IMG/VR virus record: IMGVR_UViG_3300015603_000046
Span: 1 to 30,261 of that record
DNA length: 30,261 bases
Direction: 5' to 3' (one strand)
From: a virus
The notes beneath the pieces were generated by a model. The model was not told where the DNA came from and did not search any database. It saw only the letters and a list, made by a program, of their open reading frames with translations. Both the position numbers and the translations under genes were made by a program. Positions 26,467 through 29,722 of this stretch are shown here, one piece after another. The stretch's first letter is position 1, and every line of letters starts with the position of its first letter.

Positions 26467-26647
26467 TGATTTGGAAATAGACCTACGACCAAGACTTACA
26501 TTGGTCAGCCATTTCCATTACTGTGTCCGTTGTACGAGAGAAATCAACGACCAAGTCGGAGATAATTTCGTACACTACACGAATGGAGATAAAGATGAAT
26601 GGCGACACAGGAAGTGTGAACCATTCAAAAAAGAGACTCCCGAGTGA
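26336..26647 (+). CDS. Small zinc-binding protein (103 aa)
   Basis: The start is set by CAAGGAG 8-9 bases before ATG 26336. The N-terminal half is alpha/beta (MNGGILLYFPQVELKVALGIL). The C-terminal half has CVRC, then an INDQVGDNFVHY strand and WRHRKC, giving Cys, Cys, His and Cys ligands of a zinc-finger-like fold. Proteins with this 'C..C...G.....H..C' layout are common among small phage genes. It overlaps the upstream gene by 131 bases. Its stop lies inside the first arm of the downstream hairpin. Confidence 0.6.
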   Translation: MQITREMNGGILLYFPQVELKVALGILKAIYTCSKLSFVKEAIDDLEIDLRPRLTLVSHFHYCVRCTREINDQVGDNFVHYTNGDKDEWRHRKCEPFKKETPE

Positions 26648-26754
26648 GGTTGCCATCGTACAACCTCACCACTCTCTCCCCCATCGTAAGCGATCCTTAC
26701 TATGGAAAACAAACAAACCCCACGGTGGATTCACCTCCTTCCTGTGGGGGAGAG
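26644..26754. other. Dense set of hairpins with competing arms
   Basis: GTGAGGTTG (26644-26652) pairs perfectly with CAACCTCAC (26661-26669). CTCTCCCCCA (26674-26683) pairs perfectly with TGGGGGAGAG (26745-26754), 10 bp. Inside, CCCCAC (26718-26723) competes for GTGGGG (26744-26749), and GGTG (26724-26727) pairs with CACC (26732-26735). The segment is rich in C and G compared with its flanks. It may be a structured RNA or a terminator region between small genes. Confidence 0.45.
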
Positions 26755-26794
26755 GGGAAAGACCGCACCTACGCTCTGTGGCACTAATCAGTAA
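26702..26794 (+). CDS. Possible micro-protein (30 aa)
   Basis: A 30-codon frame with ATG at 26702 encodes MENKQTPRWIHLLPVGERG then KTAPTLCGTNQ. The 'W-x-H-L-L-P-x-G ... T-x-C-G' spacing resembles very small phage and plasmid proteins with a similar His/Cys pattern. No SD is visible and the DNA also forms the hairpins described for this segment, so the frame could be chance. Confidence 0.3.
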   Translation: MENKQTPRWIHLLPVGERGKTAPTLCGTNQ

Positions 26795-27677: not shown

Positions 27678-27857
27678 ATGCAAGGATACAGAACATACAT
27701 TTCAATTGTGCTTTCTTTATTAGGAGCTTTCGGAGTATTTGAAAAAACAGGTGTCACTCAGGCGGACGTCGCGAGTGTTCTCGATACAGCGCTGGCTCTC
27801 GGATCAGGTATGGCAGCACTCTATTACAACTATCAGAATCACAAGAAAATGGCTTAA
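27678..27857 (+). CDS. Small phage holin (59 aa)
   Basis: A 59-codon frame begins MQGYRTYISIVLSLLGAFGVF and continues with TGVTQADVASVLDTALALGSG and MAALYYNYQNHKKMA. The pattern 'M-x-G-Y-R/K-T-Y-I' followed by one hydrophobic helix, a short polar loop and a second weaker helix is typical of small phage holins. It follows the C39 peptidase by 4 bases, so the pair should act together: the holin opens the membrane and the peptidase reaches its target. Confidence 0.75.
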   Translation: MQGYRTYISIVLSLLGAFGVFEKTGVTQADVASVLDTALALGSGMAALYYNYQNHKKMA

Positions 27858-27881
27858 ACAGAGGCGACTTGACAGAATTAT

Positions 27882-27910
27882 TTGACAATAAATGTTGTAT
27901 AATATACCAT
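27882..27910 (+). promoter_or_regulatory. Promoter before the cloverleaf element
   Basis: TTGACA (27882-27887) is followed after 17 bases by TACCAT (27905-27910, 4 of 6). A perfect TATAAT lies at 27898-27903 and another TTGACA at 27869-27874, but these two are 23 bases apart. The site therefore has two -35-like and two -10-like boxes in 42 bases and probably starts RNA near 27917. Confidence 0.5.
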
Positions 27911-27951
27911 ACTTTATATAAGAGAAGAAACGAAAAAAGACCCTTTCAAAA

Positions 27952-28038
27952 TCAATTCGGTGGAGGTGAGGAGGTTTGAACTCCTGCGACCGTAGGTTAT
28001 AAGTCATGGCGCGTACCATACCACCCCCACAGAATTGA
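27952..28038. ncRNA. Cloverleaf-like structured element, tRNA-like on minus strand
   Basis: The outer stem is long: TCAATTC (27952-27958) with GAATTGA (28032-28038), one mismatch, then GTGGAGGTG (27960-27968) with CACCCCCAC (28022-28030). On the minus strand 28028-27961 reads as tRNA-like: a 7-bp acceptor stem, a 4-bp D-like stem (ATGG/CCAT), a 5-bp T-stem (AGGAG/CTCCT) with the canonical T-loop TTCAAAC, discriminator A and CC. The anticodon arm is abnormal (weak stem, about 10-base loop) and the D-loop lacks GG. On the plus strand it lies between a promoter and a terminator. It may be a plus-strand RNA, an odd tRNA, or an attP with the 3' part of a host tRNA gene. Confidence 0.5.
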
Positions 28039-28058
28039 CCTCGATTGAGGTCTTTTTT
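28037..28058 (+). terminator. Intrinsic terminator
   Basis: GACCTC (28037-28042) and GAGGTC (28047-28052) form a 6-bp stem with a GATT loop, followed by six T (28053-28058). It shares two bases with the outer stem of the cloverleaf element, so the two folds are linked. It ends transcripts from the lysis genes and from the promoter at 27882. Confidence 0.75.
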
Positions 28059-28080
28059 ATTTGCAAAAATAAAACTCCCT

Positions 28081-28180
28081 TGATCGGAAGTCCATATTCC
28101 TATGGACTCACCATCGAGAGAGTCAACCGCTGGCTACAATTTAGGTGAATTATTTCTCCGATCACTCAGGAAGGCTGAGT
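28081..28180. ncRNA. Second structured element, coding strand unknown
   Basis: TGATCGGA (28081-28088) pairs perfectly with TCCGATCA (28157-28164). Directly inside is an 8-bp hairpin AGTCCATA (28089-28096) with TATGGACT (28101-28108); its loop is TTCC on the plus strand and GGAA (a GNRA tetraloop) on the minus strand. CACC (28109-28112) can pair with GGTG (28144-28147). A 6-bp hairpin ACTCAG (28164-28169) with CTGAGT (28175-28180) follows. On the minus strand a TATACT box lies upstream (near 28200) and a T-rich tract follows (TTTTATTTTT near 28065), which favours a minus-strand RNA. Confidence 0.4.
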
Positions 28181-28284
28181 ACCCTACTACTACATATAGT
28201 ATACACGAAATAAAAAATAGCACAAGAGCAGTTATGCACTTTCTATTATAATTTGACAGAAAATCAAAGAGGGTGTAAACAGCG

Positions 28285-28420
28285 ATGTTGGAAACAACTA
28301 ATCCGTAGAGGCGCGAGCCTGTATCAGCTACGGCGTATGCTATAATAAATTTATCCCTCTGCTACCCAAAAGATAGCCAGGGGATAGCAACGCTTCTCTG
28401 CTGATACGGAGGAGCGTTTG
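28285..28420 (+). promoter_or_regulatory. Structured integrase leader
   Basis: GTTG-GAAA-CAAC (28287-28298) is a GNRA hairpin. CCGTAG (28303-28308) pairs with CTACGG (28328-28333) around AGGC-GCGA-GCCT (28309-28320), another GNRA hairpin, leaving GTATCAG unpaired. GTATCAGC (28321-28328) is exactly complementary to GCTGATAC (28400-28407), next to the SD of the integrase. AACGCT (28389-28394) pairs with AGCGTT (28413-28418), enclosing most of the SD GGAGGAG (28408-28414). An extended -10 box TGCTATAAT is at 28338-28346, so the upper part is present only on transcripts that start upstream. Confidence 0.45.
28338..28346 (+). promoter_or_regulatory. Extended -10 promoter of the integrase
   Basis: TGCTATAAT (28338-28346) is a perfect TATAAT with the TGn extension. 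No good -35 hexamer lies 16-18 bases upstream, which extended -10 promoters can tolerate. Transcription would start near 28353, about 73 bases before the integrase ATG. An isolated TTGACA at 28253-28258 may serve another start. Confidence 0.45.
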
Positions 28421-28425
28421 CGTTT

Positions 28426-29331
28426 ATGAAAGTTTTTGATGTAGTAACTGAATACATCTCTTGGAGGAATATAAACTCTCGATCGTCGACGGTCAGGGGG
28501 TATACTGTCGATATTAAAGGTTTTTGTCTCTATATGAGAAACATTGACATTGAAAAAGTAACTATTAAAAACATCATCGAGTACCTAGAACTTATGTCCT
28601 ATATGGGCTGGGCGAATAATACTATTTTCAGAAAAGCCGAATGTATAAAAGGATTCATCGAATATGCTCATTTAAACGGCTATTGCAAACTCAATCCTCT
28701 TCTCGTCCCTATACCAGAAAAAGAATTCAAAATCCCTCGTGTAGCAGATGATGAGAGTTACCGAGATTTTTTTAATGCTATCGGAACAGACCGAGATCCT
28801 AAGAACGTCAGGAACCGTGCACTCATTTCTCTTCTGTGGGATTCTGGTATGAGAATCGGTGAACTGCTCTCTATAGATGTTGATGATTTAGACCTTGAGA
28901 AAAATAAGGCATTGATACGAACCGAAAAGGCAAAGACGAAGCGACCGATTCGAGAAGTATTTTGGTCACAAGAAACAGGAAAACATATTAGGAAGTGGCT
29001 CGTCAGGAGAGAGAGTTTGCTTCTCAATTTCAGAAAGCTGAACGAAGAGTCAGTCTTCATTGCAGTCAACGGACAGAAACGTGGAGATCGCTTACACGTT
29101 AGTTCTCTTCGTGGGACATTCAATCTTCTTTCAGACAAAGCTGGACTCGAACCGAGACTCAACCCTCATTCTTTTCGACATCATATGGGAGTGAAACTTG
29201 CAAAACAAGGAGCAAATAATTCTATCATCTCAAACATTTTGGGGCATTCTGATTTGGGAAGCTCGTATGTCTACACAATGCTTTTTGATAAAAATCTTGA
29301 GGAAGAATACCATAAATTCAACAAGGGTTGA
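28426..29331 (+). CDS. int: Tyrosine recombinase (integrase)
   Basis: The 301-residue product is a tyrosine recombinase of the XerC/XerD size class. It has an N-terminal SAM-like DNA-binding domain (about 1-90; helices around YTVDIKGFCLYMRNID) and a C-terminal catalytic domain. The catalytic set is complete: R143 (SGMRIGELL), K168 (TEKAKTKR), H248 and R251 (PHSFRHHMG), H274 (LGHSDLG) and Y283 (YVYTM). It probably integrates and excises the phage chromosome; a Xer-like role in dimer resolution is less likely given the phage context and the att-like element upstream. A strong SD (GGAGGAG) lies 11 bases before the ATG but within a hairpin, suggesting control of translation. Confidence 0.92.
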   Translation: MKVFDVVTEYISWRNINSRSSTVRGYTVDIKGFCLYMRNIDIEKVTIKNIIEYLELMSYMGWANNTIFRKAECIKGFIEYAHLNGYCKLNPLLVPIPEKEFKIPRVADDESYRDFFNAIGTDRDPKNVRNRALISLLWDSGMRIGELLSIDVDDLDLEKNKALIRTEKAKTKRPIREVFWSQETGKHIRKWLVRRESLLLNFRKLNEESVFIAVNGQKRGDRLHVSSLRGTFNLLSDKAGLEPRLNPHSFRHHMGVKLAKQGANNSIISNILGHSDLGSSYVYTMLFDKNLEEEYHKFNKG

Positions 29332-29355
29332 CATTCGGACAATTAGGAGTAATAT
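29328..29355 (+). promoter_or_regulatory. Promoter/operator block 1, before the HTH gene
   Basis: TTGACA (29328-29333) is followed after 16 bases by TAATAT (29350-29355, 4 of 6). The spacer contains CGGACAATTAGGAGTA (29336-29351). The -35 overlaps the integrase stop codon. Transcription would start around 29361-29363, at the ATG of the HTH gene, so the message may be leaderless. Confidence 0.6.
29336..29351. repeat. Operator-like repeat, copy 1
   Basis: CGGACAATTAGGAGTA (29336-29351) matches copy 2 at 29577-29592 at 15 of 16 positions, and a shorter match CGGACAAAT is at 29542-29550 inside the end of the HTH gene. Both full copies fill the spacer of a promoter, the normal place for a repressor site. 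Confidence 0.65.
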
Positions 29356-29567: not shown

Positions 29568-29596
29568 TTGACACATCGGACATTTAGGAGTACACT
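29568..29596 (+). promoter_or_regulatory. Promoter/operator block 2, after the HTH gene
   Basis: TTGACA (29568-29573) is followed after 17 bases by TACACT (29591-29596, 4 of 6). Its spacer holds CGGACATTTAGGAGTA (29577-29592), almost the same as in block 1. Transcription would start near 29603 and run into the leader described next. Confidence 0.62.
29577..29592. repeat. Operator-like repeat, copy 2
   Basis: CGGACATTTAGGAGTA, one mismatch from copy 1 at 29336-29351, in the same position relative to a TTGACA box (3-4 bases later). Confidence 0.65.
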
Positions 29597-29627
29597 TGTG
29601 ATATAGAACATTAAAAACATAAGAAAT

Positions 29628-29701
29628 CAACGAGGTGGACAAGTGCATCAAGTGGGATTAAATCGCTTGTCTACAGCCTAAATCAAATAGGAACCTCGTT
29701 G
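29628..29701 (+). promoter_or_regulatory. Attenuator-like leader with exclusive pairings
   Basis: Segment A, CAACGAGGT (29628-29636), is perfectly complementary to segment B, ACCTCGTTG (29693-29701). Segment B is also the first arm of the terminator at 29692-29717, whose second arm repeats segment A (AACGAGGT). So B can pair with A or with the terminator arm but not both. Inside, GACAAG (29638-29643 region) pairs with CTTGTC (29666-29671). Segment A carries the ribosome site (GAGGTGG) of a short reading frame. Confidence 0.6.
29643..29681 (+). CDS. Possible leader peptide (12 codons)
   Basis: A GTG at 29643 follows GAGGTGG (29632-29638) at close spacing and opens a 12-codon frame (MHQVGLNRLSTA) that ends TAA at 29679-29681, before the terminator. 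There is no run of one amino acid. A ribosome sitting on GAGGTGG would cover segment A and free segment B for the terminator, so translation of this frame would favour termination. Its expression is inference. Confidence 0.35.
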   Translation: MHQVGLNRLSTA

Positions 29702-29717
29702 AAAAACGAGGTTTTTT
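29692..29717 (+). terminator. Intrinsic terminator with GNRA loop
   Basis: AACCTCGTT (29692-29700) and AACGAGGTT (29705-29713) form a perfect 9-bp stem with a GAAA tetraloop; T runs from 29712 to 29717. It would end transcripts from the promoter at 29568 after about 115 bases. Confidence 0.8.
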
Positions 29718-29722
29718 CTTTA

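Follow-up and report, generated by a model that had tools for sequence, protein, structure and literature searches.

The DNA analysed here, referred to as the window, is the complete IMG/VR virus record IMGVR_UViG_3300015603_000046, which has a length of 30,261 nt and is classed as linear. Its genes encode a terminase large subunit, a portal protein with a weak likeness to that of P22, a major head protein, and tail proteins. Near the right end of the window, the plus strand carries a gene for a tyrosine recombinase (integrase) of 301 amino acids (28426–29331) that belongs to the Phage_integrase family (PF00589, E = 1e-28) and has XerA, XerC, and XerD as its nearest relatives. The protein is of the XerA/XerC-like two-domain form; the alignment with the two-domain XerA/XerC/XerD recombinases spans nearly its full length, and an N-terminal arm-binding domain could therefore hardly be accommodated. 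The last coding gene upstream is a small plus-strand ORF of 59 amino acids with a single hydrophobic stretch (27678–27857), for which no family was found above the cut-off. The intergenic region between this last lysis-side ORF and int (27857–28426) accounts for about 2% of the genome, is devoid of any plausible gene, and holds a tRNA-like element whose plus-strand terminator is located 368 bp from the start of the integrase gene.

No relatives of the integrase or of the lysis-region protein were found among the viral contigs searched. Related phages were obtained via the terminase (53–64%, L002–L010) and via the portal protein (about 68%, L205–L208). In these records, which either stop before the region in question or differ from it, neither an integrase nor a detectable counterpart of the element was found; the element thus rests on one sequence. 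When the terminase was compared to 400 genomes of the phylum of L025 (a match labelled 'Gracilibacteria'), just two weak matches with 24–25% identity were returned. Weak Shine-Dalgarno sites and sigma70-like promoters gave us the impression, and only that, of a Patescibacteria host, which we suspect. In phages with related terminases, a tRNA with the anticodon CAT occurs upstream of the terminase genes (L006:1205–1279, L002:6442–6514).

The tRNA-like element comprises 71 nt on the minus strand (27958–28028). Read from 28028 to 27958, it consists of GGGGGTG, 36 nt of a degenerate D/anticodon region, the canonical T-arm AGGAG TTCAAAC CTCCT, CACCTCC, A, and CCG. All seven acceptor pairs are formed between GGGGGTG (28028–28022) and CACCTCC (27968–27962), with a wobble pair at G3·U70. 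The discriminator A73 (27961) is followed by CCG, and CCA is not encoded. G3·U70 and A73 are the main identity elements for alanyl-tRNA synthetase in tRNA-Ala and tmRNA. The T-arm is perfect, with a stem at 27985–27981/27973–27969 and the loop TTCAAAC at 27980–27974. A T-arm with this loop, a 7-bp acceptor stem and the discriminator A on the minus strand had been predicted originally, along with abnormal D and anticodon arms, and the sequence bears out each of these points: a D-arm and an anticodon arm with a 7-nt loop were not found, the stem around CTTATAA is unpaired, and ARAGORN detected neither a tRNA nor a tmRNA in the element. At the gathering threshold, Rfam gave no match. A permissive Rfam search returned tmRNA (RF00023) as the closest family, matching 27958–28028 on the minus strand at 30.4 bits (E = 1.8e-10; cut-off 47). 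Neither this family nor the G3·U70 identity pair figured in the original prediction. Two further Rfam matches were rejected, as mir-3817 (26 bits versus a cut-off of 90) is a mere reflection of the long hairpin and snR50 was at chance level.

The 3' end of the element, AGGAGTTCAAACCTCCTCACCTCCA (27961–27985, minus strand), is of a type common to host tRNA-Ala and ssrA genes. In the bacterial genome collection, the generalised T-arm plus acceptor pattern, AGGAGTTCRANYCTCCTCACCTCCA, had at least 119 matching stretches from many phyla, and it also occurred in 65 viral contigs. Wherever ARAGORN assigned a type to a match, this was a tRNA-Ala or a tmRNA gene; some of the viral matches, which were permuted tmRNAs, fragments or short elements, received no type. 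Position 60 of the T-loop is a C in the element; among the matches listed, all 15 that share this C were tRNA-Ala. Because the typed matches are tRNA-Ala or tmRNA, we concluded that an alanine-acceptor RNA gene is represented in the phage by its 3' end. In the search for the 3' half that had been suggested with the original prediction, the generalised pattern gave matches, and exact sequences of 24–26 nt gave none in partial searches. Exact searches with a 36-mer and a 26-mer gave no matches in the viral and genome collections (for the 26-mer, none in genome_contigs), an exact 24-mer was found in 0 of 827 genomes from three phyla in a partial search, and the exact T-loop of the window was absent from the viral contigs searched. 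The missing exact match is a weak negative and does not refute an attB in such a gene. The viral contigs also show a permuted (two-piece) tmRNA arrangement, with T-arm and acceptor ahead of a short loop that leads to GGGGGTG (L141, L149, L151, L160, L179, L194, L197, L199, L201).

Pairing continues well past the tRNA ends. On the minus strand, the 5' arm of this extended stem, TCGAGGTCAATTCTGT (28044–28029), pairs with the 3' arm, ACCGAATTGATTTTGA (27961–27946), through U-1:A73 and G-2:C74, one mismatch, and 13 further pairs including three G·U; the original prediction had described the same arrangement with seven pairs after the mismatch. In total, 15 of the 16 positions beyond the acceptor pair, compared to 5.0 ± 1.9 (maximum 11) in 154 comparators comprising tRNA-Ala, tRNA-like-domain-only (TLD-only) RNAs, and odd phage tRNAs. 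This indicates that the window does not simply contain a tRNA-like gene and that the acceptor belongs to a long inverted repeat, so that no true tRNA 5' half is needed to explain why the 5' acceptor strand matches. Flanks that 'mimic a tRNA', as the region had been described, are better put as one long inverted repeat including the acceptor stem. As RNA, the extended stem would lock the 3' end, and charging would require cleavage. A perfect 10-nt inverted repeat encloses the structure on the plus strand, with AAAAAAGACC (27933–27942) as the left and GGTCTTTTTT (28049–28058) as the right arm. The latter doubles as the 3' part of an intrinsic terminator identified by the terminator scan, GACCTCGATTGAGGTC-TTTTTT (28037–28058, plus strand), and AAAAAAGACC is able to compete with the terminator stem.

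RNA folding of the region 27920–28062 yielded −54.9 kcal/mol (z = −6.48) for the minus strand and −47.0 kcal/mol (z = −4.05) for the plus strand, and none of 200 shuffles was as stable on either strand. The minus-strand fold contains seven G·U pairs versus two in the plus-strand fold. A structured RNA on the plus strand, as considered earlier, is thus consistent with the folding but is the weaker idea compared to an RNA on the minus strand, as both the z-score and the G·U bias favour the latter. The plus strand was also thought to be framed by a TTGACA promoter and a T6 terminator. Terminator-like sites exceeded expectation (2 versus 0.5 in shuffles), whereas promoter-like sites occurred at chance level (3 versus 2.9 in shuffles), and TTGACA-17-TACCAT (27882–27910, plus strand) is one of these three; a perfect TATAAT (27898) is located just 10 nt past TTGACA. 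Hence, the terminator half of the proposed frame stands and the promoter half does not, and a promoter-driven small RNA on the plus strand would have its terminator but no promoter above chance. The promoter scan revealed no promoter-like site on the minus strand near the element.

Further structured sites were observed elsewhere in the window. The intergenic stretches 26640–26790 and 21690–21770 fold strongly, and in stability they rank near the top of all 140-nt and 75-nt windows of the genome. A structured leader occurs right before int (28290–28425), with the complementary sequences GTATCAGC/GCTGATAC as well as a hairpin close to the start codon, and may control int expression. At 29627–29720, a stem TCAACGAGGT/ACCTCGTTGA is followed by the terminator AACGAGGT-T6, which reuses the same strand in an arrangement of the terminator/antiterminator type. 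The repeat TCGGACANTTAGGAGTA is present at 29335–29351 and 29576–29592, inside two TTGACA-type promoters flanking an ORF of 65 amino acids, and looks like a pair of repressor operators.

The element combines a 3' half of the tRNA/tmRNA type with an adjacent tyrosine integrase gene. In mycobacteriophages, attP is located immediately upstream of int and typically matches 30–45 bp of a tRNA 3' half, and in M. smegmatis 10 of 10 attB sites of tyrosine integrases overlap tRNA or tmRNA genes (PMC10865867). The reading that we prefer, at about even chances, is that the element is an attP built on a host tRNA-Ala or ssrA gene, of which it has taken the 3' end, and that this attP lies within a long inverted repeat with a second role as a terminator. 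The minus strand would supply the T-arm, the acceptor strand, and the discriminator of the host alanine-acceptor RNA gene, and the XerA/XerC-like integrase would recombine attP with the host tRNA-Ala or ssrA gene. Crossover would probably take place across the T-loop, so that the T-arm (27969–27985, minus strand) is the proposed recombination core with the T-loop as overlap, and at one junction the 3' end carried by the phage would make the host gene whole again. Around this 3' end, the matching 5' acceptor strand is joined with the extended stem in one long inverted repeat; on the plus strand, this repeat and the T6 terminator would close late-gene transcripts before int.

The attachment site suggested in the original prediction is thus supported by a 3' half of the alanine-acceptor class that immediately precedes the gene for a tyrosine recombinase. 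Counted against it are CCG in place of CCA, the matching 5' acceptor strand, and the lack of an exact host match in the searches described above; nor was a prophage junction seen. To our knowledge, ordinary attP sites have no matching 5' acceptor strand. The element resembles tRNA/tmRNA attP sites such as that of mycobacteriophage Boilgate (PMC10865867) in that a tRNA 3' half occupies an intergenic position beside int and in that the integrase is a tyrosine recombinase. It differs in its long inverted repeat with the matching 5' acceptor strand and in a recombinase that seems to be without an arm-binding domain. Compared to tRNA-Ala, the G3·U70 acceptor stem, the T-arm, and C60 in the T-loop are alike, whereas the element is without a D-arm or anticodon arm recognised by ARAGORN and reaches its discriminator after 68 nt rather than 73. 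If the element is an attP, the class of insertion target of an uncharacterised temperate phage is identified, with the attachment site inside a long inverted repeat.

The attP reading and its rivals are not fully exclusive. In an unlikely alternative, and the one that survives best, the minus strand would carry the gene of a phage TLD-only tmRNA, an RNA that could act as an alanine-chargeable decoy for SmpB or tmRNA. DS6A is the phage case named for such a molecule, which inhibits tmRNA, perhaps by titrating SmpB; TLD-only tmRNA also occurs in some organelles (PMC4131195, PMC11915505). The Rfam match of the element is to tmRNA, its minus strand has the stronger fold with more G·U pairs (z about −6.5), and it shares with tmRNA and DS6A-type TLD-only tmRNA the G3·U70 acceptor, A73, the T-arm, an ATGG after the acceptor at tmRNA-like spacing, and the lack of an mRNA-like domain. 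The related RNAs nearest by sequence, L275 and L348, have GGGGGTG-NN-ATGGTA like the element. With a covariance model of 34 TLD-only RNAs from viral contigs, the element scored 34.7 bits (E = 2.2e-5 in the window; 13.6 bits for the other strand), a value that overlaps those of tRNA-Ala (25–33) and odd phage tRNAs (29–39), while clear TLD-only RNAs reached 45–56. In the D region, ATGGTACGCG, the spacing of GG fits but TCGA is absent. The GAC before the T-stem is replaced by CGC, the T at the end of the T-loop is replaced by C, and CCA is missing. P2 is poor, with an unpaired position in the model alignment and an alternative 5-bp bulged stem that has a pairing probability of 0.04. Moreover, a 15-pair clamp, absent from the comparators, closes off the ends, recognisable neighbouring genes are on the plus strand, no promoter-like site was found nearby on the minus strand, and the element lies beside int, whereas clear TLD-only members adjoin replication genes and not integrases. 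As two motif tests, one for TCGA and one for P2 with GAC, were negative, the element was not filed as a TLD-only tmRNA.

Slightly less likely still is that the locus is just a plus-strand terminator or structured RNA, either the 3'-terminal part of the late mRNA or a small RNA, and that its tRNA likeness is a functionless relic. The good terminator at 28037–28058, the plus-strand z-score of −4.05, the other strongly folding intergenic stretches of the genome, and the ability of AAAAAAGACC to compete with the terminator stem all agree with this explanation, but a hairpin terminator has no need of a canonical T-arm with alanine-acceptor identity, the minus strand folds better than the plus strand, and the promoter is at chance level. 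We attach a low probability to a combined function, in which a TLD-only tmRNA decoy, a divergent member of a widespread viral family, would double as attP; a crossover in the shared T-arm on integration into ssrA or tRNA-Ala would then regenerate the decoy as well as the host gene, and release of the decoy would be controlled by a clamp open to processing. Lower still we place a decayed phage-borne tRNA-Ala or ssrA gene acquired by imprecise excision, which might still serve as attP. Fragments of ssrA in prophages have been ascribed to imprecise excision in a paper on a marine phage (PMC9004378), and in the element the acceptor and T-arm are intact with D and anticodon arms degenerate, but 7/7 acceptor pairs and 15/16 pairs outside the gene are not expected of decay. 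The attP reading remains the one that we prefer. Integron attC and CTX-type attachment sites are likewise hairpin DNA near a Xer-related tyrosine recombinase, and an attC-like reading was rejected, as the integrase is not IntI (53.6 bits versus the integron-integrase cut-off of 265). A GTTRRRY core was not seen.

The viral contigs contain a family of short tmRNA-type elements. An 81-nt element in L184 scored 56.8 bits, above the Rfam tmRNA cut-off, without an mRNA-like domain, and a 48-nt element in L178 (2391–2438), located just upstream of terminase and portal genes, scored 39.9 bits against the same family. A gapped pattern search of the viral contigs, which left the T-stem bases free and did not include P2, returned at least 119 stretches. 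In 114 of the 119 matches listed, the T-stem pairs at all five positions (chance about 1%). An alignment of 34 representatives has the form GGGGGTG-N2-4-GG-TTTCGAC-[P2 hairpin]-GGAC-T-arm-CACCTCCA. The four pairs of P2 are formed in 94% of the cells of this alignment, with 59 two-sided changes, and the covariation score of the whole structure was 0.524 versus 0.138 in shuffles. We concluded that the short elements of this family are TLD-only tmRNAs. Their count is a lower bound, as one acceptor sequence was searched, and several of the contigs are near-duplicates. Members of about 60–70 nt occur in loci L227–L345 (L251:301–363, L256:4019–4081, L268:3014–3075, L279:8489–8552, L246:5426–5488, L228:7487–7550, and others), and several lie right beside DnaB helicase genes. 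DnaB-like helicases accounted for 7 of 82 neighbouring proteins, which also included Erf and replication initiators. Integrases were not among the commonest neighbour families, and a motif scan near the TLD-only elements revealed integrase-like frames in just two loci, and at one of these the frame overlaps the element. When the TLD-only RNAs were compared to annotated phages by BLAST, the matches were 3' ends of tmRNA or tRNA, and no clear TLD-only gene was present in the six regions inspected. Minimal tmRNAs devoid of the mRNA-like part are apparently much commoner in phages than DS6A, the single phage case named in PMC4131195 and PMC11915505, would suggest, and such RNAs could block host ribosome rescue. 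This family, barely recognised so far, matters more than the attP finding itself.

Two further groups of alanine-type elements were observed in the viral contigs. Smaller elements of about 48–50 nt consist of an alanine acceptor and a T-arm with 13–18 nt between them (ACCAATAGGGGTTTTA in most) and a covarying T-stem (L229:10110–10157, L289:6804–6851, L298, L333, L344, L299, L336, L242, and L178:2391–2438); they are natural counterparts of an alanine minihelix. In addition, tRNA-like genes with alanine-type acceptors, mostly GGGGGCG/CGCCTCC, display shrunken D-arms and long anticodon arms (L236, L284, L252, L307, L312, L285, L300, L314, L240, L270), and their apparent anticodons include CTA and TTA, which correspond to stop suppressors.
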